Below, piece by piece: positions 1 through 42,083 of a stretch of 64,000 bases of DNA (positions within the stretch are counted from its first letter, which is position 1; each line of letters opens with the position of its first letter). This DNA is from Afipia birgiae 34632 (GTDB lineage Bacteria; Pseudomonadota; Alphaproteobacteria; Rhizobiales; Xanthobacteraceae). The translations under genes and the position numbers were made by a program. The stretch is from the NCBI RefSeq assembly GCF_000308295.2, contig NZ_HG326653.1, forward strand, positions 1-64,000, written 5' to 3'. The notes under the pieces are model-generated. The model was not told the origin of the DNA. It made no database searches and was given only the letters and a program-made list of their open reading frames with translations.

Positions 1-206
1 TATTAGATTAGGTGGTCCCGACATTGCTGATCGTTGGATATCCACCTCCGACTATCGCGGCACGCGGTGTTGCGCGAGCCCACGGGGCTTCCAACAACCA
101 GCGAGGCCGCGCGAAATTCTTGACTGCGTGAGCCGCTGCTCCAAAGGAACAGGAGAGCCGTCCCGGCGCAGACGGCTCGTGCAGCACGGAAATGGACCGA
201 CATCAT
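1..206 (-). pseudogene. Frameshifted PCu(A)C-type periplasmic copper chaperone remnant
   Basis: The open frame starts at 206, overlapping the end of the DUF411 gene, and encodes a signal-peptide-like start (about residues 1-28, ending SGSRSQ) followed by a low-complexity tail. Reading one base out of frame after ASLVVGSP gives SPWARATPRAAIVGGGYPT followed by ISNVGTT. That is the WARAT...GGYxTIxNxGT pattern of PCu(A)C copper chaperones. The shift falls in a run of four C near base 90. The shifted frame itself meets a stop at about 6-8, so the gene is broken at least twice or cut by rearrangement. Family role: delivering Cu(I) in the periplasm. A sequencing error in the C-run cannot be excluded. 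Confidence 0.5.
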
Positions 207-643
207 TCGACCGCATAGATTTTGGGTTGTGAGCTGTCTTTGAAGACCGCGTAAACCGTGAACGCTCCGCTCTTGCGTCCCGTCATCCCCGGGGAGCCCT
301 CAGGCATGCCCGGAAGTGTAATACCGGCGATTGCCGGCCGCTCCGAAAGCATCTTCCGCACGATGCTTATCGGGACATGCCCATCTACCACGTATCCCTC
401 GATGAACATCGTGTGGCAGCCTTGCAGATTATCAGGGACGCCTGCCTTGCGACTGATTTCACTCAGGTCGTTGGTCGCTTTGACGTCGACTATGAATCCA
501 TTTCGTCGAAGATACGCGGCGTAACCTTCGCAACAACTACATTGAGGATTTTTGTAGAGCACCGCACGCGGCGCGTCCGCCGCGCGAATCGGTGTCGCGG
601 CTAAGATTGAGATCAAACCGACACAGAACGTGCGCCGTTGCAT
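203..643 (-). CDS. DUF411 periplasmic metal-binding protein
   Basis: A protein of 146 residues starting at an ATG (643), with a signal peptide of about 21 residues (LISILAATPIRA). The mature part begins with the DUF411 signature YKNPQCSCCEGYAAYL, in which CxCC is a candidate metal or thioredoxin-like site, and continues with the conserved GCHTMFIEGYVVDGHVP and LPGMPEGSPGM segments. DUF411 proteins are regularly encoded beside multicopper oxidases and copper efflux systems and are thought to bind copper in the periplasm; the biochemical role is not settled. Here the gene follows the multicopper oxidase by 23 bases on the same strand, so the two are probably co-transcribed. Confidence 0.9.
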   Translation of the reverse strand: MQRRTFCVGLISILAATPIRAADAPRAVLYKNPQCSCCEGYAAYLRRNGFIVDVKATNDLSEISRKAGVPDNLQGCHTMFIEGYVVDGHVPISIVRKMLSERPAIAGITLPGMPEGSPGMTGRKSGAFTVYAVFKDSSQPKIYAVE

Positions 644-666: not shown

Positions 667-2097
667 CTACGCGACTCGCAGCAATGTCATCATCCCCGCG
701 ACTTGGTGATCAGTGACGTGGCAGTGGAACATCCAGTCACCAGGGTTGTCCGCGACGAAAGCCACATCGACAGTGTCGCGAGGCTCCAGAAGTACAGTAT
801 CCGCCCACTGACGGTATGGGACTGCCGCGCCATTTCGAGACAGAATACGAAAGCTGTGGCCGTGGAGATGCATCGGATGCCACCACGCGGTTTCGTTTTG
901 CAGCCTCAGAACGTATGGTTGTCCTCGCTGCAGCGTAAGTGAAGGCGGCATGCCCTCATGTCCATCACCCGTCATCGACGTTCCGTTGATGGCCCAAGTC
1001 GCCCCGTGGGACATCCCATGCATGCCGCCCATTCCGGCCATGTTGCCACCACCCATCATGCCACCCTGCAGCTTCAGGACATGTGTTTCGGCCCGGCCGA
1101 GGTCTGGTTCGGCGAGCGGATTGCGCGGCAAGGGAACAAGTGCGTTTGGACTCTTTCTGGGCGTATACTCGTCGCCGTAGGAGAGGACCGCGACGGCATA
1201 GCTCAGACCTTGGTAGAAATCGTCGATCACTTCGTACGCCCGCCCAGGTTCACCATTCAACTCGAGAAGAACGTCGGCTCGCATTGCAGGTCCCAGCAGA
1301 ACGCGACCGTTTTCCGGTTCGTGAGGTTCGCACGGTTGTCCATCCACCGCGATGATGATTGGCCTGTGCCCTTCAAAACGCAGGGCCATGATCCGAGCGA
1401 GAGCAGCGTTGATCAGGCGGAGCCGTAAGCGTTCTCCCGCTTGAACACGCTCTTTCGTGTGAAGGGCGCCATTGACGGTGACCGTGTTGCCCACCCGACC
1501 GGACATTGCAGCTTCCATTGCGTTGCCGAAGCCACCAACGAGTTGACCCTCCGACGTCAGCCGCCAATCGGAAATCACCCACGCAACGTCGCGCTCGATC
1601 CCGGGCGTTTCCGGCTCTTCGACAATCAGCGCACCGGCAAGACCTCGTCCGAGTTGTTGTAGCGTATTTGCATGGGGGTGGTACCAAAACGTGCCAGCGT
1701 CGGGCGGCGTAAATTCATAAGTGAATGTCTCGCCGGGTGCGATGGGCGCTTGAGTCAGCCCGGGCACTCCATCCATCGAAATCGGAAGCCGGATACCGTG
1801 CCAATGAACGGTCGTACCTTCGGCCAAGCGATTCTCCACCAAGATTCGCACCGGCACTCCCTGCCGGACTCGTATTTGCGGCCCGGGAATGGTCCCGTCG
1901 TACGCCCACACGTCTGTAGTAAAAGCGCGAGATCGGGTACCAAGGTCCCAAGTGGTCGGACGGACGAGTAATTTGAGAGTTCGTATATCAGGGGCGGCTT
2001 CGGCTAGCCTTGAACTGCTCGCCAGTAGAGCAAGACCTGCTCCCCTACGGAGAACATCCCGACGTGTAATCGATGGAGATGATTTCGAATACGCCAT
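667..2097 (-). CDS. Multicopper oxidase (CopA/CueO type), Tat-exported
   Basis: 476 residues from the ATG at 2097 (a GTG six bases upstream is possible). The N terminus carries a Tat signal, SITRRDVLRRGAGLALLA. All four copper-ligand blocks are present in order: HWHGIRL, WYHPHAN, HPMHLHGHSF and HCHVTDHQVAGMM, so the type 1, 2 and 3 copper sites should be intact. Between the second and third blocks is a Met/Gly-rich stretch (GGMMGGGNMAGMGGMHGM), as in CueO, where such Met-rich segments bind Cu(I). The expected role is oxidation of periplasmic Cu(I) to less toxic Cu(II). It lies next to DUF411 and downstream of the cus genes, in keeping with copper detoxification. Confidence 0.93.
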   Translation of the reverse strand: MAYSKSSPSITRRDVLRRGAGLALLASSSRLAEAAPDIRTLKLLVRPTTWDLGTRSRAFTTDVWAYDGTIPGPQIRVRQGVPVRILVENRLAEGTTVHWHGIRLPISMDGVPGLTQAPIAPGETFTYEFTPPDAGTFWYHPHANTLQQLGRGLAGALIVEEPETPGIERDVAWVISDWRLTSEGQLVGGFGNAMEAAMSGRVGNTVTVNGALHTKERVQAGERLRLRLINAALARIMALRFEGHRPIIIAVDGQPCEPHEPENGRVLLGPAMRADVLLELNGEPGRAYEVIDDFYQGLSYAVAVLSYGDEYTPRKSPNALVPLPRNPLAEPDLGRAETHVLKLQGGMMGGGNMAGMGGMHGMSHGATWAINGTSMTGDGHEGMPPSLTLQRGQPYVLRLQNETAWWHPMHLHGHSFRILSRNGAAVPYRQWADTVLLEPRDTVDVAFVADNPGDWMFHCHVTDHQVAGMMTLLRVA

Positions 2098-2112
2098 TCC
2101 CACTCACTCGTC

Positions 2113-2547
2113 CTAAGCTCTGAGCGCGAGATCGGTGAGTCCGCGCTCGCACTCTTTTGTCAGTTCAAGATTGGACCATACGATCTCACCATCAGAGTCG
2201 ACGATAAATCCGCTCCGAAAGTCCTGAACTTCCCGCAGCGCACATGCGCGCAGGATCGCCGCTTGGTTCGTGGGATGACACTCGCTTTGAAGCAGAACGC
2301 CGCAAATGCCTTCCGGCCGATACCAGTCAACGTCATCTGAATAGACCAGAGTCACAGGACCAAACTCATCACGTTGCCTCCAAATGCGTGCAAGTTCTCT
2401 ACACGCTAGTTCGGTCGTCCTTGGGATCGGGTTACGTCCGCTCTCCCAATGTTGGATGGTGCCACGGCTCACACCGAGTAATCCCGCAGCACCAAATTGC
2501 GATACTCGCAAAAGCCTGCGCCATTTCTTTAAATCCCAAGAGTCCAT
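2113..2547 (-). CDS. XRE-type helix-turn-helix protein
   Basis: 144 residues from the ATG at 2547. Residues about 5-55 form an HTH of the lambda-repressor type (WRRLLRVSQFGAAGLLGVSR followed by GTIQHWESGRNPIP). The remainder, about residues 60-144, has no domain I recognise; it contains WYRPEGICGVL and a segment FIVDSDGEIVWSNLEL that could be a small ligand-binding fold. It sits between the multicopper oxidase (16 bases downstream) and cusF on the same strand, so it may be a local regulator. The upstream frame can be extended to about 2607, but the ATG at 2547 places the HTH at the usual distance from the N terminus. Confidence 0.75.
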   Translation of the reverse strand: MDSWDLKKWRRLLRVSQFGAAGLLGVSRGTIQHWESGRNPIPRTTELACRELARIWRQRDEFGPVTLVYSDDVDWYRPEGICGVLLQSECHPTNQAAILRACALREVQDFRSGFIVDSDGEIVWSNLELTKECERGLTDLALRA

Positions 2548-2694
2548 CACCGGCCCGTTGCGGCGGGACTGGCCGATAAAGAGGCCGGCTTTGCTATGCG
2601 TTAGCATGAGGCCTACAGGTACGCTTTGGTCCCGGCAGGCGGTGCATCTCCGTCAGGATTGGGGAGCTTGCACCACCTGGGCCGGAAGCCGCTG

Positions 2695-3078
2695 TTATTG
2701 CCCGGGACTGACCGATTGGACCGTGTAGTTGTTGCCCGATCCCGTCACCGTAAACCGGACCTTGTCCCCGACCTTCACCTTCGAAAGATCGACTGAAGCC
2801 GCCGTCGGAAACTCCATCTTCATTGCCGGCCAATTGACTGCGGCGATCGGAGCATGATCGAGCGTGATTTTCTTGCCAGCCGCATTAAGTGCGGTGACGG
2901 TGCCGGTGCTCGATGCGGTCTTTTGCTCAGCCTTTTGGTCAGTCTTTCCCATGCCTGGCATGCTGTTCATCGATTGCGCCTGCGCATGGCCGATCGAGCC
3001 AACAAACCCGATAAGCCCGGCAAGCAGCGCCGCGGCAACGAAAGAGCGCTGGGGTTTGAGAGAACTACGGGACAACAT
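2695..3078 (-). CDS. cusF: CusF-like periplasmic copper-binding protein
   Basis: 127 residues from the ATG at 3078, which is preceded by a good AGGAG ribosome site. A signal peptide covers about residues 1-35 (AALLAGLIGFVGSIGHAQAQ). The mature protein shows the CusF_Ec fold pattern: GTVTALNAAGKKITLDHAPI, AVNWPAMKMEFPTA and VKVGDKVRFTVTGSGNNYTV. The NWPAMKMEF segment supplies the Met/Trp residues that cap Cu(I) in CusF. The family shuttles Cu(I) or Ag(I) to the CusBA efflux pump. The gene lies 126 bases downstream of cusA, in operon order. Confidence 0.9.
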   Translation of the reverse strand: MLSRSSLKPQRSFVAAALLAGLIGFVGSIGHAQAQSMNSMPGMGKTDQKAEQKTASSTGTVTALNAAGKKITLDHAPIAAVNWPAMKMEFPTAASVDLSKVKVGDKVRFTVTGSGNNYTVQSVSPGQ

Positions 3079-3203
3079 GGATCTCTTCTCCTGTGATTGC
3101 AGGACGAGAGACGATGACCTCACGCTGACCTCGCCTGCAATTTGGTCAGCTGAGGGATAGGTCCCTGCACGGCTCCGCGCCGTTGGGTATTCAAAACACG
3201 ACT

Positions 3204-6200
3204 TCACTTCGCCACCTCGGGGGCTATGTGCCGAGCAGTCTGTGGGGGCCCAGAAACAGTGCTGTGATCCGGTTCTGAATGCGATGTCGGCAACCGGTAG
3301 CCTTTGATGATCGCATAGATTGCGGGGATGACCACGAGCGTCAGTATCGTGGACGAGATCATTCCACCGATCATCGGCACTGCAATCCGCTGCATAACTT
3401 CGGAGCCGGCCCCACTACTCCACAAGATCGGCACCAGACCAGCCATGATGGCAACCACGGTCATCATCTTCGGCCGAACTCTGTCCACCGCTCCCAGCAT
3501 AATGGCTTGATAGAGATCGTTTCTTGTAAATGGACGTCCGGCAGCCGCGCATTCAGCTTTCAGCTCATCAAGCGCCTGTTCGAGATAGATCAGCATCACA
3601 ACGCCTGTCTCGGCCGCCACGCCAGCAAGCGCTATGAAGCCGACCGCCACTGCCACGCTCATGTTGAAGCCCAGCCACCACATCAGCCAAACTCCGCCGA
3701 CAAGTGAAAATGGCAACGAAAGCATCACGATGAGTGTTTCAGCAAGCTTGCGGAAGTTGAGATAGAGCAGCAGGAAGATGATGAGCAGGGTGATCGGCAC
3801 GACGATTTTCAGACGAGCCTCCGCTCTCTCCATGTATTCGAACTGGCCGCTCCAGGAAACGTAATATCCGGGTGGGAATTTGACCTCCTTTGCCACGGCC
3901 TCGCGCGCATCTGCGACGTATCCGCCAAGATCGCGACCGGTGATGTCGACAAAAATGTAAACCGCAAGCTGGCCGTTTTCAGTCCGAATTGACGTGGCAC
4001 CGCGCGTGAGTTTAACGCTGGCTACCTCACCGAGCGGCACGCTTCCGCCAGAGGCCAACGGAACCTGCACATCGGTCGCAATGGCCTGCGGGCTCGATCG
4101 AAGCTCGCGTGGGTAACGTACATTAACCGTGTATCGCTCGCGACCTTCGACAGTAGTCGTTACGGCCTCGCCGCCGAGCGCGGTCGATATCACGTTTTGC
4201 AGGTCCGCAACCATCAGGCCGTAGCGCCCGAGCGCGATGCGATCGGGAACCACTTCCAAGTAATAGCCCCCGATCACGCGTTCGGCGTAAGCACTTGAAG
4301 TGCCGGCCACGTTTCTAACAACGGCTTCAACCTGTCGCGCTAACCTGTCCATTTCCGCCAGGTCGGTACCGTATACCTTGATTCCGACCGGCGTGCGGAT
4401 GCCGGTAGAGAGCATGTCGATCCGTGCCCGTATTGGCATGGTCCACGCATTCGATACGCCCGGAAATTGAAGCGCCTTGTCCATTTCTGCCCGCAAACTG
4501 TCGATCGTGACACCTGGCCTCCACTCCGACTTCGGCTTCAAGTTAATGATGGTCTCGAACATTTCAGTTGGGGCCGGATCGGTTGCTGTGTTTGCCCGTC
4601 CTGCTTTTCCGTAGACCGATGCAACCTCAGGGAATGCCTTGATGATCCGATCCTGCATTTGCAACAGTTCTGCAGCCTTGGTGACCGATATACCCGGTAG
4701 TGTCGTGGGCATATACATCAAGGTGCCTTCGTTCAGCGTCGGCATGAACTCGCTGCCGAGTTGACGCGCAGGCACGATCGAAATCGCTAGAGCCACCAGT
4801 GCGAGGAGGATCGTCACTCCCTTTGCTCGTAGAACGCCGCGAATGACAGGGCGATAGATCCAGATGAGAAAGCGGTTCACCGGGTTTTTATGTTCAGGAA
4901 TGATCCGGCCCCGGACGAAGATCACCATTAGAGCGGGGACCAACGTGATAGAAAGGAAGGCGGCCGCGCCCATGGCGAATGTTTTAGTAAACGCCAGGGG
5001 TCCAAATAGCCGACCTTCCTGCGACTCCAGCGTAAAGATCGGGAGGAAGGAGACGGTAATCACGAGCAGGCTGAAAAACAGCGCTGGGCCTACCTCAGCG
5101 GCCGCGTCGACGAGGATTCGTATTCGAGGCTTGCCGGGCTTTGCTCGTTCGAGATGCTTGTGGGCATTTTCGATCATGACGATCGCGGCATCGATCATCG
5201 CTCCGACAGCGATGGCAATACCGCCAAGGCTCATGATGTTCGAGCCGAGGCCGATGTATTTCATTCCTGCAAACGCAATCAAGATGCCAACGGGCAGCAT
5301 AAGGATGGCAACCAAGGCACTGCGCAAGTGAAGCAGAAATACGATGCACACCAGGGCGACGATAATGCTTTCCTCGATCAGGGTGGTCTTGAGAGTTTCA
5401 ATCGCCGCCTTAATTAACTCCGAACGATCATAAACAGGTACGATTTCAACGCCTTTTGGGAGGCTCGAGGCAATCTCCGACAGGCGCGCCTTTACATTGT
5501 CGATAACTGTGAGGGCGTTAGCTCCAAATCGCTGAAGCGCGATACCGCTCGCGACCTCTCCGTCGCCATTGAGTTCTGTAATGCCCCGGCGCTCGTCCGG
5601 CCCCAGTTCAACGCTTGCGATATCGCGCAGCCGAAGCGGCGTGCCCGCGCTGGTCTTTAGAACAATATTTTCAATGTCCTCAATGCTTCGCAGATAGCCT
5701 CTGCCGCGCACAACAAACTCAAATTCCGATAGCTCGACTGTCCGCCCGCCGACGTCGATGTTGCTGGCGCGAATAGCGTCCCGGAGCGTTTGAAGGGAAA
5801 TGCCCTGCGACCGGAGTCGTCGAGGATCGACCACAACATTGTATTGCTTGACGAACCCACCGACGCTAGCCACCTCCGCCACGCCTTCGGCCTTCGAAAT
5901 GCCATAGCGGATCGTCCAGTCCTGCAGGGAACGCAGTTCGGCCAGGTTCATATCTTTGGCGAGGATGGCGTATTGATAGACCCAACCGACGCCGGTGGCG
6001 TCCGGCCCTAGACTAGGTGTTACGCCGGCCGGGAGCCTGCGCGTTGCTGCGTTCAAGTACTCCAGCACGCGACTCCTCGCCCAATAGGGGTCGGTGCCAT
6101 CTTCGAAAATCACATAGACGAAGGACACGCCAAAGAACGAGAACCCCCGCACGACCTTTGACTTCGGCACGGTCAGCATGGCGGTCGTCAGCGGATAGGT

Positions 6201-6395
6201 CACTTGATCTTCTATGACCTGCGGCGCTTGTCCGGGGTATTCCGTGTAGACGATCACCTGAACGTCGGAGAGATCCGGAATAGCGTCCAGTGGCAGAGTG
6301 CGAATTGCATACACGCCCGCCGCTACGGCAAAGACGGTACCGACGAAAACGAGCAGCAGATTATGCGCCGACCAGGCGATCAGCCGGGCGATCAT
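3204..6395 (-). CDS. cusA: Heavy-metal RND efflux pump (CusA/CzcA family)
   Basis: 1063 residues, the full length for an HME-type RND permease of the inner membrane. The start MIARLIAWSAHNLLLVFV is typical of the family. The first transmembrane helix is followed by the periplasmic loop TLPLDAIPDLSDVQVIVYTEYPGQAP, a CusA/CzcA hallmark, and the second repeat has SEFMPTLNEGTLMYMPTTLPG. The helices include GGIAIAVGAMIDAAIVMIENAHKH, with the acidic residues expected in the proton relay. The start overlaps the end of cusB by 4 bases. It exports Cu(I)/Ag(I) by proton antiport; specificity for copper is inferred from the neighbours (CusF, multicopper oxidase, CopA). No cusC/tolC-type outer-membrane gene is in the window. 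Confidence 0.95.
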   Translation of the reverse strand: MIARLIAWSAHNLLLVFVGTVFAVAAGVYAIRTLPLDAIPDLSDVQVIVYTEYPGQAPQVIEDQVTYPLTTAMLTVPKSKVVRGFSFFGVSFVYVIFEDGTDPYWARSRVLEYLNAATRRLPAGVTPSLGPDATGVGWVYQYAILAKDMNLAELRSLQDWTIRYGISKAEGVAEVASVGGFVKQYNVVVDPRRLRSQGISLQTLRDAIRASNIDVGGRTVELSEFEFVVRGRGYLRSIEDIENIVLKTSAGTPLRLRDIASVELGPDERRGITELNGDGEVASGIALQRFGANALTVIDNVKARLSEIASSLPKGVEIVPVYDRSELIKAAIETLKTTLIEESIIVALVCIVFLLHLRSALVAILMLPVGILIAFAGMKYIGLGSNIMSLGGIAIAVGAMIDAAIVMIENAHKHLERAKPGKPRIRILVDAAAEVGPALFFSLLVITVSFLPIFTLESQEGRLFGPLAFTKTFAMGAAAFLSITLVPALMVIFVRGRIIPEHKNPVNRFLIWIYRPVIRGVLRAKGVTILLALVALAISIVPARQLGSEFMPTLNEGTLMYMPTTLPGISVTKAAELLQMQDRIIKAFPEVASVYGKAGRANTATDPAPTEMFETIINLKPKSEWRPGVTIDSLRAEMDKALQFPGVSNAWTMPIRARIDMLSTGIRTPVGIKVYGTDLAEMDRLARQVEAVVRNVAGTSSAYAERVIGGYYLEVVPDRIALGRYGLMVADLQNVISTALGGEAVTTTVEGRERYTVNVRYPRELRSSPQAIATDVQVPLASGGSVPLGEVASVKLTRGATSIRTENGQLAVYIFVDITGRDLGGYVADAREAVAKEVKFPPGYYVSWSGQFEYMERAEARLKIVVPITLLIIFLLLYLNFRKLAETLIVMLSLPFSLVGGVWLMWWLGFNMSVAVAVGFIALAGVAAETGVVMLIYLEQALDELKAECAAAGRPFTRNDLYQAIMLGAVDRVRPKMMTVVAIMAGLVPILWSSGAGSEVMQRIAVPMIGGMISSTILTLVVIPAIYAIIKGYRLPTSHSEPDHSTVSGPPQTARHIAPEVAK

Positions 6396-7861
6396 TTGGG
6401 CGCATCTCCCGAAGACAACCCGCTTAATGCCGCCTTGAGATTGCTTTCCGCATCAATCAGGAAATTGGCCGCGGTGACGACCCGCTCGGTCTCGGATACG
6501 CCCTCTCGAATCTCCGCAAATCCGTTGCCGCGGATTCCGACCTTCACCGGCCGGGGCTCAAACCGTCCTTCCCCCTTGTCGATGATAACGACTTGGCGTG
6601 TGCCACTATCGATCACCGCGCTCTCGGGCACAGCTAAGACTGCGGCGCCACCACCCGTCGTGAGCTCCATGTCTGCATACATGTCCGGTCGCAGGAGGCC
6701 GTCAGGGTTCGCGAGCTCGACACGTAGACGCGCCGTGCGTGTTTCGGTGTTGATGCGTGGATAGATACGGGAGACTTTTCCTGTGAACACACGATCGGGA
6801 TAGCCACGAACCCGGACAGCGGCTGATTGTCCTTCTGCGACCAGAGCGAGTTCTCGCTCAGGGACGTCCGCCAGCGCCCAGACCACCGAGTGATCTGCAA
6901 TGCGAAACAACACCTGACCGGCGGGAGCTTTCATACCGGGGACGGCGTCGCGCTCCAAAACCAGGCCATTGCTTGGAGCAGACCACGTAATCGAAAGAGG
7001 TACTTTTCTGGTGCGCTCGATTTCGGCAATCACGTCGGCCGGTACATTGAGATTTTCGAGGCGTCGACGAGACCCTTCGAAGTCAGGGGCCGCCACAAGC
7101 TGTGCGCCGGCGGCAACAATGTCCGGCGAATAAAGCTGAAGAAGTGGCTGACCCGTTCGCACCATGTCGCCAGTGGTGACATTCTCCACGCGATCGATGA
7201 AGGCATCCGAGCGAGTGGCGACAACCGCGATGCGGCGTTCATCGAGTTGAATCGTGCCGGGCACTCGGAGAGTTCGGGTCAAGACCCGCCGTTCTACCGG
7301 TTCAGAGCGCACTCCGGTGCGTTGCAGCCGCCCAGGGGAAACCTTGACAGTGGAACTGTCCTGCTCCTCCCCCTCATAAACGGGCAGATAGTCCATCCCC
7401 ATGGAATCTTTTTTCGGGACGGGTGATGTGTCCGGCAATCCCATTGGATTGCGGTAATAGAGAATTCGCTTCTCCCCGGTCGCGGCAGCCGTTTGCGTCG
7501 CCGGCGGATCATCGAACGTCACGTCCTCGCTGGCGAGAACCGGCACAAATTCGCGACCATCCGCCGTTTTCTTGGGTTGCGCGGAGTAGGAAGGTTTTCC
7601 GTCGGGATCGCGGTAGTAAATCACGGAACCGGCGGGGGCACGGACAGCTTGACCCCCACCGAGCACAGCCGTTAGTTGCGAAGGCACCCATCCGGGGAAA
7701 GCCCCTTCGCTACGTCCTAATCGAAACCCGACCGCCAGGACACCGAGCATCAGGAAGGCAAAAAAGAGAATCAAAAAGATGCGTTTCAATGGCGATCTGC
7801 CCACGCTCGTGTGCCGTTTCTTAACACTTTCATAGGCATCGAGAGATGTTATCTGATCCAT
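6392..7861 (-). CDS. cusB: CusB-type periplasmic adaptor with two N-terminal metal-binding repeats
   Basis: 489 residues. A membrane anchor (IFLILFFAFLMLGVLAVGF) lies near residues 27-45. Two copies of a heavy-metal-binding motif follow: VIYYRDPDGKPSYSAQPKK and ILYYRNPMGLPDTSPVPKK, the second ending DSMGMDYLPVY. After them come the hairpin, barrel-sandwich and beta-barrel domains of an RND membrane-fusion protein (VSPGRLQRTGVRSEPV to the C terminus). It links the RND pump to an outer-membrane channel and takes copper from CusF. Four-base overlap with cusA and a one-base overlap with the preceding gene show tight operon packing. Confidence 0.93.
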   Translation of the reverse strand: MDQITSLDAYESVKKRHTSVGRSPLKRIFLILFFAFLMLGVLAVGFRLGRSEGAFPGWVPSQLTAVLGGGQAVRAPAGSVIYYRDPDGKPSYSAQPKKTADGREFVPVLASEDVTFDDPPATQTAAATGEKRILYYRNPMGLPDTSPVPKKDSMGMDYLPVYEGEEQDSSTVKVSPGRLQRTGVRSEPVERRVLTRTLRVPGTIQLDERRIAVVATRSDAFIDRVENVTTGDMVRTGQPLLQLYSPDIVAAGAQLVAAPDFEGSRRRLENLNVPADVIAEIERTRKVPLSITWSAPSNGLVLERDAVPGMKAPAGQVLFRIADHSVVWALADVPERELALVAEGQSAAVRVRGYPDRVFTGKVSRIYPRINTETRTARLRVELANPDGLLRPDMYADMELTTGGGAAVLAVPESAVIDSGTRQVVIIDKGEGRFEPRPVKVGIRGNGFAEIREGVSETERVVTAANFLIDAESNLKAALSGLSSGDAPK

Positions 7862-8262
7862 CAGTTCTTGGCCTTCAAAACGAGGCGGCTTTGAACGGTA
7901 TCCTTCTCTCCTTGGACCTTCGCTGCGAGAGAAAGGCGCCAGCTTCCCTCCATTCCCAAGGTAGTCCGATATCGGTAAATACCGGTCTCTTCCGATGGCA
8001 GCGCCTCTAGATCAGCCATCATGGTCGGCATGCCATCCGGGGCCATATCCAGTCGGGTAGCGAAGATAACAGCGTCGCCCACAGGCTTGCCGGTCGGCTT
8101 GTGCATCAGCCGCACGGAAATAATTGTGTCCTGCGCCAGCGGCAGCGCGTCTTGAACGAGTTGAAATTCATAGTCTTGGGGCGACGCGGAAACATTCTGG
8201 GCGGATATGACCGTCGCCAGAGCAACGGTCGCGCAGAACGACACTATGTGGGATTTCATCAT
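7861..8262 (-). CDS. FixH/YtkA-like exported protein, first gene of the cus operon
   Basis: 133 residues from the ATG at 8262. The N-terminal signal peptide is cleaved near NVSASPQ (about residue 25). The mature part (YEFQLVQDALPLAQDTIISV ... MHKPTGKPVGDAVIFATRLDMAPDGMP ... YRYRTTLGMEGSWRLSLAAKV) matches the immunoglobulin-like YtkA/FixH-type domain, often found fused to or beside CusB-type adaptors. It is exported and may help bind metal or assemble the pump. It is translationally coupled to cusB and is the first gene after a SigF-type promoter at 8326-8351. Confidence 0.8.
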   Translation of the reverse strand: MMKSHIVSFCATVALATVISAQNVSASPQDYEFQLVQDALPLAQDTIISVRLMHKPTGKPVGDAVIFATRLDMAPDGMPTMMADLEALPSEETGIYRYRTTLGMEGSWRLSLAAKVQGEKDTVQSRLVLKAKN

Positions 8263-8325: not shown

Positions 8326-8351
8326 TTCGTGTAGGGCGGCGGTCCGGTTAC
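8326..8351 (-). promoter_or_regulatory. SigF-type promoter of the cus operon
   Basis: On the minus strand GTAACC (8351-8346) is followed after exactly 16 bases by CGAA (8329-8326). The first start codon of the operon (8262) is about 60 bases downstream. The same two hexamer/tetramer elements at the same spacing occur three more times within 1.2 kb, including before the sigma factor gene. Confidence 0.8.
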
Positions 8352-8391
8352 AAGCCGCATTCAAAAAGGCTGCAGACCGGCTGCAGACGGG

Positions 8392-8640
8392 CTATCGTCG
8401 TCCCTTTCGGTCCTGGCGATCGGTGCTCTGCATCATCTTTTCACAGGCATCCATCATCTTGGTCATGCGGCCCATCATCGCGGACATGTCGCCGCCCATC
8501 ATCATTCCGTGATCCCCAGGCGCCGCCGGTTGGGCGGGTGCCGCAGGTTGTGCCGGTCGAGCGTCTTGGGCCAGCGCCATGGACGTTACTCCGCTGCCGA
8601 GCGTGGCGAATACGAGAGAGGCGGCAAGAAGTTTTCTCAT
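8392..8640 (-). CDS. Small exported Met-rich protein
   Basis: 82 residues from the ATG at 8640, preceded by a clear purine-rich ribosome site (AAGGAGAG). The signal peptide ends at about residue 24 (SMALAQDA). The rest is a Pro/Ala/Gln linker followed by a Met- and His-containing segment (DHGMMMGGDMSAMMGRMTKMMDACEKMM) that could coordinate Cu(I). I do not recognise a named family. It is 27 bases downstream of the 91-residue membrane protein gene and probably shares its SigF-type promoter. Confidence 0.75.
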   Translation of the reverse strand: MRKLLAASLVFATLGSGVTSMALAQDARPAQPAAPAQPAAPGDHGMMMGGDMSAMMGRMTKMMDACEKMMQSTDRQDRKGRR

Positions 8641-8666
8641 GTGAACTCTCCTTCTTTTTGAAGCGT

Positions 8667-8942
8667 TTATGGCTGGCTGTTGGGCTGCGAGGGCGGGCTC
8701 GAGTTATTCCCCTTGCCCATGGAACAAAGGTGCAGCGCGCACATCGCGAGACAAGGCAAGACGCCAAACAGGATCGGCAGGGCACCTGCCGCGACGAGCC
8801 AGTGCCAATTGAGCACGAGGCCCAGGACTATCAGCGCTGCGAGACCGACCCAGACGATGGGCTTTTGCCACCACAGCCGGAACGTCGAGGAACACGCGGC
8901 TCCATTGAACGCCGGACGCCTGGGCACCGGAAGTGTCGTCAT
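8667..8942 (-). CDS. Small two-helix membrane protein (DUF2933-like)
   Basis: 91 residues from the ATG at 8942. Two hydrophobic helices span about residues 23-66 (WWQKPIVWVGLAALIVLGLVL; HWLVAAGALPILFGVLPCLAMCALHLCSM). The second helix ends with Cys-Ala-Met-Cys-Ala-Leu-His-Leu-Cys-Ser-Met, a Cys/His/Met cluster at the membrane face that could bind metal. The short hydrophilic tail is Ser/Pro/Gln rich. The layout resembles DUF2933 proteins found in heavy-metal loci. It is the first gene downstream of the promoter at 8993-9018. Confidence 0.72.
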   Translation of the reverse strand: MTTLPVPRRPAFNGAACSSTFRLWWQKPIVWVGLAALIVLGLVLNWHWLVAAGALPILFGVLPCLAMCALHLCSMGKGNNSSPPSQPNSQP

Positions 8943-8992
8943 GTCAGTCCTCCTGCCACTGCCAAGGTTCCCGGCAGGGCCATAACGGTGAA

Positions 8993-9018
8993 TTCGGCGG
9001 TGCCGCAAGAGCGGTTAC
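8993..9018 (-). promoter_or_regulatory. SigF-type promoter of the small membrane-protein unit
   Basis: Minus-strand GTAACC (9018-9013), 16-base spacer, CGAA (8996-8993). The start codon of the 91-residue membrane protein (8942) is about 50 bases downstream. Confidence 0.8.
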
Positions 9019-9050
9019 AGGTTCACGGATCCGTGAACTGCGGCCCGCAA

Positions 9051-9302
9051 CTAGCGGCAGGTCCACAGATTGCTTTTTGGACCACCCTGGTAGGTGCAGC
9101 TCTTTTCACGAGGGGCTCGTTGCGAGGTTCTGCGTGGCGGCACTTGATTTGCGGCTGCGTAGGGACCGCCCTGCTGATAGGCAGAAGGCCCGACTTCGTT
9201 CGGCCAATAGCGCTTGTCGGTAATTGTTGGACCTGCTGCCGCTTGTCCCAACGACGCAGCGAGGAGGATAATTGACCCTGCAAGCGTAAGTTTCCATTTC
9301 AT
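9051..9302 (-). CDS. Small exported protein of unknown function
   Basis: 83 residues from the ATG at 9302, with a strong AAAGGAG ribosome site. The signal peptide is clear (LAGSIILLAASLGQAAAG). The mature part of about 60 residues is polar, rich in Gln, Pro, Tyr and Arg, and ends with two cysteines (SCTYQGGPKSNLWTCR) that could form a disulfide. I do not recognise it. Its own SigF-type promoter lies at 9349-9374 and is arranged back to back with the promoter of the sigma gene, so it should be a member of the same stress response. Confidence 0.7.
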   Translation of the reverse strand: MKWKLTLAGSIILLAASLGQAAAGPTITDKRYWPNEVGPSAYQQGGPYAAANQVPPRRTSQRAPREKSCTYQGGPKSNLWTCR

Positions 9303-9348
9303 GACCCGGCTCCTTTTTTGAGATGCTCAATGCGTCTCAATGAAGGAG

Positions 9349-9374
9349 TTCGGTCCGGCACGAAAATCGGTTAC
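9349..9374 (-). promoter_or_regulatory. SigF-type promoter of the 83-residue exported protein
   Basis: Minus-strand GTAACC (9374-9369), 16-base spacer, CGAA (9352-9349). The start codon at 9302 is about 46 bases downstream. Confidence 0.8.
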
Positions 9375-9451
9375 AGATCACAGGCGTGGTTTCGCCTGCA
9401 CCGCACTTGTTGATGCAGTCAAGCGCCGCGGCCAAAAAAAGGGCGCACCCT

Positions 9452-9477
9452 GTAACCGGAAGCCAGCGAGCTACGAA
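9452..9477 (+). promoter_or_regulatory. SigF-type autoregulatory promoter of the sigma/anti-sigma operon
   Basis: GTAACC at 9452-9457, 16 bases, CGAA at 9474-9477. This is the same element as in the three minus-strand promoters nearby, so the sigma factor should activate its own gene. The transcript is expected to start around 9484, which bears on which start codon is used. Confidence 0.8.
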
Positions 9478-9480
9478 CTC

Positions 9481-10047
9481 ATGAACACGGAGCATGCCAA
9501 GGAGCGTGAACTTCGGGCCTTGATGATCGCGGGCCTCAACGGCGACGCCGCGGCGCATCGCGCGTTGTTGTCGGCGCTGAGCGGGCACTTACGTGCGTAC
9601 TATCGAAACAAACTCGTCCGGTCGGGCCGCGGCCCTGAAGAGGCCGAAGATCTGGTTCAGGAAGCTTTGATGGCGATCCACACTCGGCGCGACACATATG
9701 ATCCTGCTGAACTTCTAACGCCATGGGTGTACGCTATCGCTCGGTATAAACTAATCGATCATCTTCGTCATAGTCGGTCCAAGCAAGCGAACGTGCCGAT
9801 CGAAGATGCGTTGGACGTGATGGCGGCCGACGATCGAGCGGCCACGGAGAGCAGTCTCGATCTGACAAAGTTGCTGGCGAAGCTGCCCGAAAAAGTCCGG
9901 TTGGCCATTCGTTACGTGAAGATTGAAGGTCTTAGCGTGGTCGAGGCCGCGGCTCGATGCGGAATCTCGGAGTCGGCCGTTAAGATAAACGTGCATCGCG
10001 GCCTTAAAGCATTAAGTGCCGCCATCGCTCAGGACAAAGCGAAATGA
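9481..10047 (+). CDS. sigF: ECF sigma factor, SigF/NrsF type
   Basis: 188 residues if the ATG at 9481 is used. Region 2 includes RALLSALSGHLRAYYRNKLV and the core contact AEDLVQEALMAIHTRR, then LTPWVYAIARYKLIDHLR. Region 4 is LLAKLPEKVRLAIRYVKIEG followed by the HTH LSVVEAAARCGISESAVKIN. Caulobacter SigF, paired with the membrane anti-sigma NrsF, responds to heavy-metal stress. The promoter CGAA ends only 3 bases before this ATG, so the message would be leaderless or begin inside the codon; the ATG at 9523 (TTG at 9520) still leaves a complete region 2 and may be the real start. The stop overlaps the anti-sigma start (ATGA). Confidence 0.92.
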   Translation: MNTEHAKERELRALMIAGLNGDAAAHRALLSALSGHLRAYYRNKLVRSGRGPEEAEDLVQEALMAIHTRRDTYDPAELLTPWVYAIARYKLIDHLRHSRSKQANVPIEDALDVMAADDRAATESSLDLTKLLAKLPEKVRLAIRYVKIEGLSVVEAAARCGISESAVKINVHRGLKALSAAIAQDKAK

Positions 10048-10685
10048 AAACCGATGAACTTATTGATGTGCTCAGCACGAATGTCGAGCGCGTCGACACC
10101 GGCAAGGTAAGCCGAAACCTTCAGCTTGCGATCGTCGGCGGCTTAATCCTTGCGTTGATCACAGGCCTGGCTGTTTTGGGCGTCCGATGTGACTTGAGAA
10201 ACCCAAGCGCCTTCGGGTTTTTGGTTCTCAAGGTCGGCTTTGGCGTCGCGGTGATTCTACTCGGATCGCACTATCTGCTCAAACACGCACGGCCTGGCGG
10301 CGAGATGCGCTCGTGGATATTTGTCACCACGATCCCTTTCGTAGCGGTGATGGCTTTAGCCGGTGTAAGTTTGATCTCTGCGCCCGCCTCCCATTGGGAC
10401 CATATGCTGATGGGAGACCGTTGGATCGAATGCCTGCTATCCATTCCCGTTATCGCAGTGGTACCTTTTGCAGTGATCATGTGGGCCGTTCGAATGGCGG
10501 CCCCCACGAACCTGGCAAGAACGGGAGCTCTCGCAGGCTTGGTCGCTGGCGGGATCAGCGCAGTAGCATACGCGCTTCATTGTACCGATGATTCCTTGCC
10601 TTTTGTTGCGGTGTGGTACGGAGGCACGATCGTCTTGTGCACGGTCGCTGGCGCCCTTTTAGGCCAGAAGCTACTTCGCTGGTGA
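10044..10685 (+). CDS. nrsF: NrsF-type (DUF1109) membrane anti-sigma factor
   Basis: 213 residues. The cytoplasmic N terminus (MKTDELIDVLSTNVERVD) is the DUF1109 sigma-binding part. It is followed by about six hydrophobic helices (LAIVGGLILALITGLAVLGV; FLVLKVGFGVAVILLGSHYLL; FVTTIPFVAVMALAGVSLIS; LLSIPVIAVVPFAVIMWAV; GALAGLVAGGISAVAYAL; FVAVWYGGTIVLCTVAGALL). Cys130 (DRWIEC) and Cys180 (ALHCTDD) match, almost residue for residue, the two conserved periplasmic cysteines reported for Caulobacter NrsF, proposed to sense metal or oxidation and release SigF. Translationally coupled to the sigma gene by a 4-base overlap. Confidence 0.92.
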   Translation: MKTDELIDVLSTNVERVDTGKVSRNLQLAIVGGLILALITGLAVLGVRCDLRNPSAFGFLVLKVGFGVAVILLGSHYLLKHARPGGEMRSWIFVTTIPFVAVMALAGVSLISAPASHWDHMLMGDRWIECLLSIPVIAVVPFAVIMWAVRMAAPTNLARTGALAGLVAGGISAVAYALHCTDDSLPFVAVWYGGTIVLCTVAGALLGQKLLRW

Positions 10686-10689
10686 GCCC

Positions 10690-10815
10690 GTTTTGGAAAC
10701 GTGGCGGACATCCGCTCCTTCGCCGGCTTGGTTTCGGAATAAGACCGAAGGACTCATAGTAACGGATCATCTTTGCGGATACGCCGGATCGCTCGGCTGC
10801 TCGATCTATGTTCAT
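10690..10815 (-). pseudogene. Truncated cueR (MerR-family copper sensor)
   Basis: From the ATG at 10815 the minus strand reads MNIDRAAERSGVSAKMIRYY followed by ESFGLIPKP, the start of the winged-helix HTH of CueR-type MerR regulators. After about residue 30 the resemblance stops (SRRRSGCPPRF instead of the expected AGYRVY segment). The frame then runs into the 3' end of the anti-sigma gene. The dimerisation helix and the metal-binding Cys loop are missing, so this cannot sense copper. The break probably marks a deletion that brought the sigma operon next to the CopA gene. Confidence 0.75.
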
Positions 10816-10837
10816 TAAGTGCAAATCCAACACGCTC

Positions 10838-10868
10838 TTGACCTTGCGACGGCTGGAAGGTCGAGAAC
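10838..10868 (+). promoter_or_regulatory. CueR-type operator/promoter of the Cu+ ATPase gene
   Basis: TTGACC (10838-10843) overlaps the imperfect dyad ACCTTGC-N7-GCTGGAAGGT (10841-10861), the layout of the E. coli copA promoter, where CueR untwists a 19-base spacer. The -10 position (10863-10868, GAGAAC) is poor, as expected for a MerR-activated promoter. The local cueR gene is destroyed, so a regulator from elsewhere would be needed. Confidence 0.65.
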
Positions 10869-15142: not shown

Positions 15143-16057
15143 TCACCGGATACCGGTGAGCCAATCGACCGCCTTTTGGGCCAATGCAGCTGCAGTAAAG
15201 ATCGCGCGCTTATCTGATTTGAGCACAGCCAGCCAGTTGCCAAGGTAGGCGGCGTGGTCGGGTCGCGGCTCGAGCGTGATGGAGAGATCGGCACAGAGGA
15301 ACGCGGCACCGATTTCTGCAACCAGTTCCTCGCGCGCATAGGCGTGGTCGCCAAAGCGCTTGCCAAGATCGCGGTCGCAACGATGCGAGGGCGACGTCCA
15401 GTGAACCAGTTCGTGTAGTACTGTCGCGTAGTAGCCTTCGGCGGCACTCGCCGTAGGTGTGTCGATGAATTGCCCATAAGGCGGCATTTCGATGCGATCG
15501 GCGGACGGAATATAGCAGGCGCGGTTCCCCCTATGCACGATGGTTGCCCTGGTCGCTGCGATGAAAGCATCGGCGCGCTCGATCCGGGTGGACACGGACT
15601 CTGTGATCGCAGACGGCTGAGCCGGTGTCGCCACCGGCAGGCCATCGATCTGATCGGTGTTGAAGACAGTGTAGGCACGCAGCATGGGAATGCGCGTCAC
15701 CGCCTCGTCGCCGGTCGTGAGGTCGCCATCGATCCGCTCGATGGTCTTGGCGTAGACCACGGTTGCGCCGTGCTCGCCCTTGCGGACCTGCGCACCGAGG
15801 GCTTGGGCCTGGCGGTAGGTCATCCATGTCGAGGACGTGTAGCCGTGCTCGATCGCCTCGGACCAGAGAATCAGAACATTGATGCCGCGATAGGGTGTGC
15901 CATCGTGGCGAAGCGGTCGGATTGAATCCGAGTCTTTGGACGTTGTGGTCCAGGGCTTGGTCCACGAGCGGGTGCCCTGCTCCAGATCGCGGATGATGAT
16001 GTCGGTGACGCGCTGATAAATGTCGGCGCGCGGGTTCGCACTGAGATGCTTGCTCAT
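15143..16057 (-). CDS. ardC: ArdC-type antirestriction protein (ssDNA-binding plus zincin)
   Basis: 304 residues. The N-terminal ArdC ssDNA-binding domain covers about residues 1-125 (ADIYQRVTDIIIRDLEQGT; SWTKPW; PYRGINVLILW; GYTSSTWMTYRQAQALGAQV; RKGEHGATVVYAK). The C-terminal metallopeptidase-like domain has ATVLHELVHWTSPSHRC (HExxH) and YAREELVAEIGAAFLCADL, whose Glu would be the third zinc ligand. ArdC proteins of conjugative elements protect incoming ssDNA from restriction in the recipient. It is 52 bases upstream of, and probably not coupled to, the XRE gene, and follows the DUF736 gene by 66 bases on the same strand. Confidence 0.93.
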   Translation of the reverse strand: MSKHLSANPRADIYQRVTDIIIRDLEQGTRSWTKPWTTTSKDSDSIRPLRHDGTPYRGINVLILWSEAIEHGYTSSTWMTYRQAQALGAQVRKGEHGATVVYAKTIERIDGDLTTGDEAVTRIPMLRAYTVFNTDQIDGLPVATPAQPSAITESVSTRIERADAFIAATRATIVHRGNRACYIPSADRIEMPPYGQFIDTPTASAAEGYYATVLHELVHWTSPSHRCDRDLGKRFGDHAYAREELVAEIGAAFLCADLSITLEPRPDHAAYLGNWLAVLKSDKRAIFTAAALAQKAVDWLTGIR

Positions 16058-26805: not shown

Positions 26806-27552
26806 TCACGTTGGCGATGGGCTAAAGCGGGCAACGAGTTTGTATCCGTTGCCAGGGTACGAGAGCGTGACGTGAGTGATGGCCTGACCCGCGTATTGCG
26901 TTCGCCGCTCTACGACCAGGCAGGCATCGCCCTCAATAATCTTGAGCTGCGCCGCGACGTCCTTATTCGCGTTCGCCGCCCGGATGTGATGCTCGGCCTG
27001 GCTCCACGGCACTTTCCTTAGCAGCCAGCTTCCCGGCGACGTCACGTTGAAATCAACTTGCGTTACCGAAGGCACGGCATCGAGATTGATCAGGCGATCC
27101 TCCGCCACCACCGGTTCCTCGTCCGCGAAATGCACGCATTTCACCGCAAGCACCCGCGTCGGCAGCGGCATATTCAGGCGAGCTGCATCGTGTTTCGTAG
27201 CGTTACGTTCCGTCCTGGACAGCACCTTGATGCGATAGGATTTGCCCTCGCGGCGAATTTCTTCCTCGGTGTCATGGATCTGAAGGACGTTCTTCTCGGC
27301 TTCGGGCTTGGCGACAAAGCTGCCCGAACGCCGGCGGCGCACGATCAGCCCCGAGGCCGCGAGCGCGCTCAACGCCTTGTTGACCGTCATGCGCGAGCAT
27401 GCATAGCGCTTCAACAGTTCCTGCTCGGAAGGCACACGAGCGCCCGGCGGCCAGTCGCCGGAAAAGATCGCCGCCTCAAGCGCGCGCTGGATCTCGGCGT
27501 AGCGCGCAACTCCCGTCGGCCCCGTGCGCTGGGACACCCGAAGTTCAGACAT
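26806..27552 (-). CDS. hutC: HutC-type GntR-family repressor of the hut genes
   Basis: 248 residues. The winged helix is EIQRALEAAIFSGDWPPGAR followed by VPSEQELLKRYACSRMTVNK and ALSALAASGLIVRRRRSGSF. The UTRA domain ends with CLVVERRTQYAGQAITHVTL and GYKLVARFSP, the HutC pattern that binds urocanate. The start overlaps the 3' end of hutF by 8 bases. Two TTGT-N4-ACAA-type sites in the hutF/hutI divergent region (28982-29025) are its likely operators. Confidence 0.92.
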   Translation of the reverse strand: MSELRVSQRTGPTGVARYAEIQRALEAAIFSGDWPPGARVPSEQELLKRYACSRMTVNKALSALAASGLIVRRRRSGSFVAKPEAEKNVLQIHDTEEEIRREGKSYRIKVLSRTERNATKHDAARLNMPLPTRVLAVKCVHFADEEPVVAEDRLINLDAVPSVTQVDFNVTSPGSWLLRKVPWSQAEHHIRAANANKDVAAQLKIIEGDACLVVERRTQYAGQAITHVTLSYPGNGYKLVARFSPSPT

Positions 27553-28954
27553 CGACCAACCTCCTGAGAACGGAGCGATATCGCGCGGCAATCTTATCAC
27601 GCCGGATATGACGTCCCTCATCCACGACCTTCGCGCCGCCGACGAACACCGACTGTATGGCCGGACACCCCGGAACAAAAATCCACGCATCCAGCCAATG
27701 ACGGCTGTCGGTCGTTGCAAAACTCGTATGCTCGGCATCGAGCACCACGATATCCGCGCGGCGACCGACTGCGATGGCGCCCACCGGCCGCGCCAGCGCC
27801 TGCGCGCCACCGGCAAGAGCGGACGTGAAAAGCCGCTGACCGGTCGACTCCCCCGGCTCCGTGGTCATCACATTGCGAGCGCGCTGGCCGAGACGCTGAC
27901 TGTATTCAAGAAGCCTGAGCTCGCCCGCCGCATCGATCTCGACGTTGGAGTCCGACCCCACGCCGTAGCGTCCGCCGGCAATCAGAAAGTCCGGGCCGTT
28001 AAAGATGCCGTCGCCCAGCGATGCCTCAGTGATGGGACAAAGCCCCACCACTGCGCCCGATACGGCAACCCGGCGCGCCTCGTCGGACGTCATATGGGTG
28101 GCGTGAATGAGACACCAGCGCTCATCGACGATCACATTGTCTAGCAGCCATTGCACCGGCCTGCGCGCCGACCACGCGATGCAATCGGCGACCTCCTTGA
28201 CCTGCTCGGCGACATGAATGTGGACAGGCCCTGCTCCCGCCTGACCTATCACCATACGCAGCGATTCAGGCGTGACTGCACGCAGCGAATGTGGCGCTAT
28301 TCCAACCTGCGCTGAAGGCAGCGAAGCCGTCACGGCGCGAGTCCGCTCAACAAGCTTCAGGAAGCGTTCGGGATCGTTCAGAAAACGACGTTGAGCAGCG
28401 CCCGGCGCCGCGCCCCCAAAACCGCCGTTCACATACAACGCAGGAAGCAGCGTCAATCCGATCTCGCTCTCGGCAGCTGCCGCCACGATACGCGCCGCCA
28501 TCTCGCCCAGATCGTCATAGGGTGAGCCGTTTGCATCATGATGTAGATAATGAAACTCGCCGACCGAGGTGAAACCGCGCTCAAGCATTTCGGCGTAGGC
28601 AAAAGCCGCGATCGCCTCCACATCGTCAGGCGAAAGACGACCGAGAAAGCGATACATCACATCGCGCCAGGTCCAGAAGCTGTCGTCGCCCACTCCGCGA
28701 CGCTCGGCGAGTCCGGCCATTCCGCGCTGAAACGTATGACAGTGAAGATTGGGAAGGCCCGGCAGTGCGATGCCCTTCACATGCCCGCTGCCGCCACAGC
28801 TAACTCCGACCTCGACCTGCGCGATGACACCACCCTCGATCGAGAGTCTGACATCGCGCGCCCAGCCGTCGGGCAGAAACGCATGATCAAAAAACAGAGA
28901 GCTCACGCCCATCTCTCGCTTCGCATCCGTTGCGCCGGGGATTCGCGATGTCAT
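27545..28954 (-). CDS. hutF: Formimidoylglutamate deiminase
   Basis: 469 residues from the ATG at 28954, chosen for its GGAGACAGG ribosome site over the later ATG at 28912. It is an amidohydrolase with LPNLHCHTFQRGMAGLAERR (metal His pair), QVGIAPHSLRAVTPESLRMV, HIHVAEQVKEVADC and VGLCPITEASLGDG and GSDSNVEIDA. The enzyme converts N-formimidoyl-L-glutamate to N-formyl-L-glutamate and ammonia, the step before HutG. HutF plus HutG is the five-step route of the pathway. Confidence 0.93.
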   Translation of the reverse strand: MTSRIPGATDAKREMGVSSLFFDHAFLPDGWARDVRLSIEGGVIAQVEVGVSCGGSGHVKGIALPGLPNLHCHTFQRGMAGLAERRGVGDDSFWTWRDVMYRFLGRLSPDDVEAIAAFAYAEMLERGFTSVGEFHYLHHDANGSPYDDLGEMAARIVAAAAESEIGLTLLPALYVNGGFGGAAPGAAQRRFLNDPERFLKLVERTRAVTASLPSAQVGIAPHSLRAVTPESLRMVIGQAGAGPVHIHVAEQVKEVADCIAWSARRPVQWLLDNVIVDERWCLIHATHMTSDEARRVAVSGAVVGLCPITEASLGDGIFNGPDFLIAGGRYGVGSDSNVEIDAAGELRLLEYSQRLGQRARNVMTTEPGESTGQRLFTSALAGGAQALARPVGAIAVGRRADIVVLDAEHTSFATTDSRHWLDAWIFVPGCPAIQSVFVGGAKVVDEGRHIRRDKIAARYRSVLRRLVDV

Positions 28955-28981
28955 TCGAACCTGTCTCCGCTCCGATTTCTT

Positions 28982-28993
28982 TTGTATAGACAA
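28982..28993. promoter_or_regulatory. HutC-type operator, copy 1
   Basis: TTGTATAGACAA, with TTGT and ACAA as inverted half-sites, 28 bases upstream of the hutF start. A second copy lies 32 bases further towards hutI. Confidence 0.65.
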
Positions 28994-29013
28994 TTGAAAG
29001 CTTGCAGGCAATT

Positions 29014-29025
29014 ATGTATAGACAA
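29014..29025. promoter_or_regulatory. HutC-type operator, copy 2
   Basis: ATGTATAGACAA, identical to copy 1 except for the first base and shared in the same orientation (core TGTATAGACAATT in both). It lies 47 bases before hutI, so one repressor could control both divergent arms. Confidence 0.65.
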
Positions 29026-29072
29026 TTAATCGCCATGCCGGGGAAGCAGGATCGATATCCTGCGGAGAGACG

Positions 29073-31093: not shown

Positions 31094-31107
31094 TCGAGGA
31101 ATATCTT

Positions 31108-41986: not shown

Positions 41987-42015
41987 ACGGAGACATTCGC
42001 GGGGTGTTCCGGCAA

Positions 42016-42039: not shown

Positions 42040-42083
42040 AGTCAGTTCGGGCGTAGTTGGAAGGCCTCATCACCGAGGTTTTC

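Follow-up and report, generated by a model that had tools for sequence, protein, structure and literature searches.

Can one sigma factor switch on its own gene, a copper-efflux pump and several small envelope proteins at once? The question is raised by a stretch of 64,000 nucleotides from Afipia birgiae 34632 (the window, meaning the whole stretch of DNA analysed), for which an initial annotation had proposed a SigF regulon for copper defence with four identically spaced GTAACC-N16-CGAA promoters. Judging from the sequence, we consider it highly probable that the window holds a local, copper-triggered regulon that an ECF16-type sigma factor governs and that includes the cus operon. The promoter and regulon part of this reading appears strongly supported, the motif, its spacer and its position being conserved in related loci, while copper as the signal is what we infer.

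Promoter sites in the window

An exact search bore out the positions of all four sites, and 0.10 such sites are expected in shuffled versions of the window. It also returned a fifth copy that had been overlooked, within an XRE-type open reading frame (2113-2607, minus strand). In the following list, the extended motif is TGTAACC-N-CGAAYT, that is, the bare motif together with neighbouring positions (T before it; C or T and then T after it) learnt from relatives.

9452-9477, plus strand: SigF-type promoter of the sigma/anti-sigma operon; exact motif, extended as TGTAACC-N16-CGAACT.
9349-9374, minus strand: SigF-type promoter of an 83-residue exported protein (P83); exact and extended motif.
8993-9018, minus strand: SigF-type promoter of the unit for a 91-aa membrane protein and a Met-rich protein; exact and extended motif.
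8326-8351, minus strand: SigF-type promoter of the cus operon; exact and extended motif.
2410-2435, minus strand: fifth copy, probably no promoter; exact motif without the preceding T, not extended.

As had been claimed, each of the four sites stands ahead of a transcription unit, the distance from CGAA to the start being 46 (P83), 50 (91-aa protein), 63 (YtkA-CusB-CusA) and 3 (sigF) bases. When spacers of 13-19 were permitted, the window contained no GTAACC/CGAA site beyond those with spacer 16. The Poisson probability of four sites in 1152 bases is ~7e-13 at 9.5 sites per spacer (the mean of spacers 14, 15, 17 and 18), a figure that serves as a guide only, because the region was chosen for its sites. 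A T precedes GTAACC in 97% of 174 distinct sites and is absent from the copy at 2410. This copy was considered as a promoter of the multicopper oxidase gene and rejected: it lies within the XRE-type frame, 306 bases ahead of the oxidase, lacks the T and has no extended match.

The bare motif occurs 54 times in the genome (5.33 Mb), with 10, 11, 16, 13 and 4 copies at spacers 14 to 18, and its backwards-read control occurs 55 times. Isolated copies are therefore background, and clustering is the signal. The extended motif, with spacers 13-19 permitted, gave seven sites in the genome and none for the backwards control. Spacer 16 is common to all seven, and each is situated at an nrsF locus: four are in the window and three at two other such loci (contig C2, ~317-318 kb; contig C1, ~6.3 kb). 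No remote regulon member was found in this genome by the extended motif. The proposed genome scan of spacer 16 against its neighbours thus favours spacer 16 with the extended motif (7/7) and fails to do so with the bare one, where spacers 15, 16 and 17 gave 11, 16 and 13.

Conservation of motif and spacer in relatives

A PF06532 search returned matches in 38 of 61 genomes (A. birgiae and relatives), four of the copies being in A. birgiae, and 74 loci around these matches were used, with the exclusion of G006's partial matches and those from G019 contig C2. In the 74 loci together with 22 kb of the window (1.31 Mb), GTAACC-N-CGAA was found 3, 1, 2, 17, 99, 1, 0, 0 and 1 times at spacers 12 to 20, and reversed or scrambled motifs produced no peak at spacer 16. 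The corresponding counts for the named loci (the best 80 of 94, from Bradyrhizobium, Afipia, Nitrobacter, Tardiphaga, Microvirga, Methylobacterium and others) were 2, 2, 2, 4, 186, 1, 4, 0 and 2; the two sets overlap, with some records common to both. In a scan of 149 genomes of the family, 93 matches to the extended motif turned up in 55 genomes, distributed as 23, 3, 49, 12 and 6 over spacers 14 to 18. The backwards control was commoner (~157, added up by hand), so that what counts in favour is solely how the spacers are distributed and where the sites lie. Several of the matches with spacer 14 are nearly alike in their spacer sequence and seem to be inherited stretches. Two sites picked at random differ at a mean of 10.9 of the 16 spacer positions, a divergence which argues that the sites are not a copied repeat.

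We then recorded what the sites precede in 83 loci, namely the 80 named ones (best 80 of 94), the window, and two further loci of its own genome (L065 and L066). A site no more than 350 bases upstream was present for 68 of 82 sigma genes, the exact motif being missing ahead of the other 14, and for 60 of 64 P83 genes; the counts were 8 of 22 for the 91-aa gene, 5 of 56 for CusB and 2 of 53 for YtkA. Spacers 14, 15, 17 and 18 placed no site within this distance of the surveyed genes in the same loci. Within 2.5 kb on the same strand, again in loci that include the best 80 of 94, a site was found upstream of 22 of 56 CusB genes and of none of the other 34, and upstream of 11 of 14 Met-rich, 4 of 10 CusF, 4 of 7 multicopper oxidase, 3 of 5 copA and 8 of 37 DUF411-type genes, figures that reflect distance only and do not imply operons. 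These counts make the sigma operon and P83 the constant targets, and the pump a target in a minority of loci, in several arrangements. Direct control of the pump would accordingly be typical of loci like the window rather than universal: the claim that the module drives CusBA probably holds for the window, with its site 63 bases ahead of the cus operon, and falls as a general rule.

Where sites precede Cus genes, gene order varies. The Cus genes may follow nrsF (L125) or diverge from sigF (L181), and the site lies directly ahead of CusB in L130, L141, L142, L152 and L153, of which L152 and L153 look near-identical. SigF-type sites also precede a gene for an OpgC-like acyltransferase (L130, L133, L152 and L153) and one for a membrane protein (L133, L141, L152, L153 and L188) whose apparent match in L217 is annotated as a methyltransferase, both names being given by comparison.

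Two other loci of the A. birgiae genome are of note. L065 (contig C2, ~317-324 kb) is a second sigF-nrsF-P83 locus with YtkA-CusB-CusA genes (CusA 77% identical) that have no site. L066 5597-6613 (contig C1) contains nrsF, followed by a SigF-type site and P83; tblastn detected no sigma gene upstream, and this nrsF is possibly an orphan anti-sigma gene. On plasmid pMR68 of Pseudomonas sp. K-62 (L218), a sigma/NrsF pair (NrsF 51% identical) lies beside a MerT-like gene, with GTAACC-N16-CGAA after nrsF at 8735, and a link of this pair to mercury is possible.

The sigma factor and its anti-sigma protein

9481-10047, plus strand: ECF sigma factor, 188 aa from ATG 9481; Pfam Sigma70_r2 and Sigma70_r4_2 over cut-off, NCBIfam NF009191 299 bits (cut-off 171).
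10044-10685, plus strand: NrsF/DUF1109 membrane anti-sigma protein with Cys130 and Cys180; Pfam NrsF PF06532 over the full profile, E 1.4e-61.

The two frames overlap by 4 bases, and the pair is of the ECF16 type. The window sites agree with the ECF16 promoter consensus tGTAACc-N16-CGAA, as quoted in PMC3420878. The anti-sigma protein has the cysteines at 130 and 180 that the initial annotation reported, conserved in 65/65 and 62/65 aligned copies, respectively, and hydropathy alone predicts six membrane segments if overlapping ones are merged.

Against the Caulobacter-type NrsF equivalog NF042994 the protein scores 107.6 bits, below the cut-off of 300. In a tree of 68 NrsF proteins, which does not include the NrsF of Caulobacter and whose long branches leave the deep joins unsure, the window's copy falls in a clade of 23 (support 99/98), a set defined in advance by an identity of 50% or more to this copy and not by neighbouring genes. 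Separate from it is a clade of nine distinct rows (95/90), labelled bufferin-linked because 10 of the 11 loci have MNIO genes no further than ~10 kb away. The other 36 rows, labelled EcfF-like, form no single clade, and six of them branch with the window's clade; one EcfF-like row (L114), in neither of the two clades, has an MNIO gene 1.2 kb away. A search of the A. birgiae genome for MNIO (DUF692, PF05114) bufferin-type genes gave no match. The likening to Caulobacter SigF/NrsF consequently stands for the promoter type and not as plain identity, in view of the NF042994 score and of an NrsF clade apart from the copies near MNIO genes. An EcfF-like copy in the same genome (L067) has GTAACA-N15-CGA ahead of its sigma gene, and 24 of 29 EcfF-like loci examined have GTAAC(A/G)-N15-CG(A/T) at this place, in line with the EcfF consensus given in PMC3420878. 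Since the L067 promoter differs, the two sigma systems of this genome look separated.

The start codon of sigF poses a difficulty. Its ATG (9481) lies 3 bases past CGAA, and the next in-frame starts are TTG 9520 and ATG 9523. The two nearest relatives (L125 and L126) likewise have an ATG 3 bases past CGAA. Among 18 other site-bearing loci, 17 have an ATG 14-21 bases past CGAA, one of them (L189) with an additional ATG 2 bases past it, and L154 has no ATG in that stretch. Transcript 5' ends had been expected about 7 bases after CGAA, which is impossible for an ordinary sigF message: with the ATG so close, a message whose 5' end lies 6-7 bases past CGAA would begin inside the open reading frame. 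Either there is no leader on the sigF message, its start codon being unusually near the promoter, or the protein starts at 9520 or 9523. The same clash was met by primer extension at ecfF of Bradyrhizobium, where it was read as a downstream start (PMC3420878).

The cus operon and its neighbours

7861-8262, minus strand: YtkA-like periplasmic protein, first gene of the cus operon; Pfam YtkA E 1.1e-17.
6392-7861, minus strand: CusB-like adaptor; Pfam HlyD_D23 E 8e-66.
3204-6395, minus strand: CusA/CzcA-family RND pump; TIGR00914 1228 bits (cut-off 701).
2695-3078, minus strand: CusF-like copper-binding protein, start chosen by hand; Pfam CusF_Ec E 9.9e-25 on the longer frame 2695-3207.
667-2103, minus strand: multicopper oxidase, possibly in the same long unit as the cus genes; TIGR01480 187.6 bits, below the cut-off of 479.
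203-643, minus strand: DUF411-type protein, last gene of the possible long cus unit; L084 has a relative with 68% identity in matching gene order, at the same place as in pOC167, where PLSDB annotates DUF411.

The pump (TIGR00914), the adaptor (HlyD_D23) and CusF (CusF_Ec) all score over their cut-offs, and the stricter CusB model NF007303 is not reached by the adaptor (200.6 of 390). No CusC outer-membrane channel was seen among the genes identified between 8262 and 203. The gaps that follow CusA, ahead of the CusF, XRE-type, multicopper oxidase and DUF411-type genes, measure 125, 87, 9 and 23 bases; being so small, they suggest that the cus unit may extend to the last three of these genes, beyond the extent first annotated.

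On the other side of the sigma operon, the stretch 10686-10862 holds a remnant of the start of a MerR/CueR-type regulator gene (minus strand), ending near the end of nrsF. A dyad GACCTT...AAGGTC at 10840-10862 precedes copA, which probably starts at ATG 10900, and we take this dyad to resemble a CueR site. Membership of copA in the nrsF operon was considered and set aside, a separate regulator being more likely with a CueR-like dyad in front.

Small envelope proteins

9051-9302, minus strand: 83-aa exported protein P83, with C-x-Y-x-G-G-P-K-x3-W-x-C at the C-terminus; export judged by eye from the N-terminus.
8667-8942, minus strand: 91-aa membrane protein with a hydrophobic middle and a Cys-rich end (LPCLAMCALHLC).
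8392-8640, minus strand: 82-aa exported Met-rich protein, with 11 Met in the last 57 residues; N-terminus signal-peptide-like by eye.

None of the three proteins matches a Pfam or NCBIfam family over cut-off; the Met-rich protein, whose gene lies 26 bases downstream of the 91-aa gene, has a weak Spy match far below the cut-off. Among 24 distinct sequences of the P83 family, 22 have Y-x-G-G-P-K close to the C-terminus and 7 have a flanking Cys pair (both judged by eye). A search for this family gave 23 matches in 17 of 149 genomes, with a site just upstream of 13, including the 11 best; the ten matches without a site all rank below these 11. The profile was made from eight sequences found behind sites and includes four of the 13 site-bearing matches, so that the count becomes 9 of 19 when these are excluded. 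A class-wide search, whose first pass scored at most 14 candidates per genome, placed matches in at least 2 of 385 genomes, that of A. birgiae and one marginal. Plasmid records gave no P83 match, which says little, because pOC167 carries a distant copy (L084).

Possible mobility of the module

The window also holds genes for an ArdC-type protein, a conjugative coupling protein, a TrwC-type relaxase and a resolvase (15143-16057, 39920-44840 and 45998-47665). Histidine-breakdown genes (HutF-like amidohydrolase, urocanase) lie at 27545-32772, between the ArdC-type and relaxase genes. Relatives of NrsF, including distant ones, occur in 18 plasmid records, 11 of which are typed conjugative. Sites stand ahead of sigF and CusB at like places on two plasmids typed conjugative, pOC167 of Afipia carboxidovorans and plasmid 2 of Nitrobacter hamburgensis; on pOC167 the 91-aa gene and, in divergent orientation, P83 also have one.

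A model and its alternatives

We propose that the membrane anti-sigma protein NrsF would hold the sigma factor until NrsF itself is acted on by surplus envelope copper, probably by way of Cys130 and Cys180. The freed sigma factor would then start transcription at TGTAACC-N16-CGAA(C/T)T, and four units would be switched on at once: sigF-nrsF, P83, the membrane and Met-rich proteins, and YtkA-CusB-CusA-CusF. The transcript of the cus operon perhaps reads through to the multicopper oxidase and DUF411 genes.

That the sites are chance occurrences, or a repeated element unrelated to promoters, has a negligible probability in our judgement. The bare motif taken alone would allow it, as eight spacer-16 copies are left once the window and other nrsF loci are set aside, about as many as other spacers yield, and the backwards control is equally common, but four sites with a single spacer in 1152 bases, the confinement of all seven extended sites to nrsF loci and the diverged spacers speak against it. 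The sigma factor might, alternatively, drive only itself, P83 and the small-protein unit, with the Cus pump mainly under another copper regulator (CusRS- or CueR-like) and the site at 8326 of minor importance. Such a division would fit the 34 of 56 Cus operons with no same-strand SigF-type site within 2.5 kb upstream (loci including the best 80 of 94 named), among them the other Cus copy in A. birgiae (L065). We nevertheless hold it to be improbable, given that the window's cus site lies so close to its first gene and has the full extended motif, and that 5 of the 80 named loci (best 80 of 94) have a site within 350 bases of CusB.

The nature of the inducer raises a further alternative, which we rate as rather unlikely: thiol-reactive or oxidative stress (chromate, cadmium, hydrogen peroxide or hypochlorite) would be the signal, and the copper genes would be passengers of a general envelope-stress switch. 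Related systems are indeed described as responding to chromium and cadmium (PMC3511200), hydrogen peroxide (PMC3420878) and hypochlorite (PMC8315932), and a Met-rich protein accompanies the hypochlorite system too. However, the targets in the window include copper genes (CusBA, CusF), and the SigF regulon of Caulobacter is reported to be copper-induced and needed for copper tolerance (PMC8224329). A copper-triggered regulon that includes the pump thus stays our preferred reading.

More tentatively, and with considerable doubt, we suggest that this distinct ECF16 branch is a portable private copper switch, whose regulon is its own copper island on conjugative DNA and whose most constant target is the small exported Y-x-G-G-P-K family, not the pump; this family may buffer periplasmic copper where bufferins are absent. 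If the preferred reading is true, a sigma factor directly controls Cus-type RND copper efflux in a group of bacteria that comprises soil dwellers and nitrifiers, and the module, which plasmids also carry, serves as an inducible switch. Three small protein families, P83 above all, are singled out as likely parts of copper defence.

Comparison with known systems

CnrYXH-CnrCBA of Cupriavidus is a precedent for an ECF sigma factor driving a heavy-metal RND pump; it concerns nickel and cobalt, and its ECF group and sensor proteins differ from those of the window. SigF/NrsF of Caulobacter crescentus (ECF16) has the same order of a sigma gene and a DUF1109/NrsF anti-sigma gene, two conserved cysteines (131/181 there; PMC3511200), and similar promoters ahead of the sigma operon and its targets, with a copper-responsive regulon (PMC3511200, PMC8224329); a sigF mutant is copper-sensitive (PMC8224329). 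Its targets include DUF692/DUF2282 (bufferin-type), DoxX and MsrPQ-like proteins (PMC8224329), whereas those in the window are CusBA, P83, the 91-aa and the Met-rich proteins. Two findings in Caulobacter speak against our model: in chromium stress the SigF targets were found to lack the gene classes that reduce metal inside the cell, and sigF has no strong autoregulation (PMC3511200).

EcfF/OsrA of Bradyrhizobium (ECF16) shares a DUF1109 anti-sigma protein with Cys129/179 and a transcription start that overlaps the annotated sigma start codon, but uses the promoter GTAAC(g,a)-N14-15-(c,t)CG(t,a) and is peroxide-induced (PMC3420878). BcrS/AbcS of Brucella (ECF16) drives an operon whose first gene encodes a Met-rich protein and whose promoter accords with (T/C)GTAAC-N17-CGAA; this system confers hypochlorite resistance, not copper efflux (PMC8315932). 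RpoQ/RsqA of Cupriavidus metallidurans pairs an ECF sigma factor with a predicted membrane anti-sigma protein, divergent from the copper- and gold-induced gigPABT genes, which include one for a small periplasmic Cys/Met protein; the other gig genes encode metal-binding, DUF2063 and DoxX-like proteins, unlike those of the window, and Cus is separate there (PMC10304878). The authors of that study obtained no direct evidence of RpoQ driving gig. The closest case in the literature searched is SigAb of Acinetobacter, another ECF sigma factor, whose control of a CusA-family pump is described as mostly indirect (PMC12153292).

Among the top-ranked papers that searches of the open-access literature returned, none places Cus genes under an ECF16 sigma factor or describes its direct wiring to P83. 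The ECF16 promoter consensus and the copper role of SigF are already in print (the latter in PMC8224329), and the newest elements are the wiring of the Cus genes and the small exported-protein family of P83.
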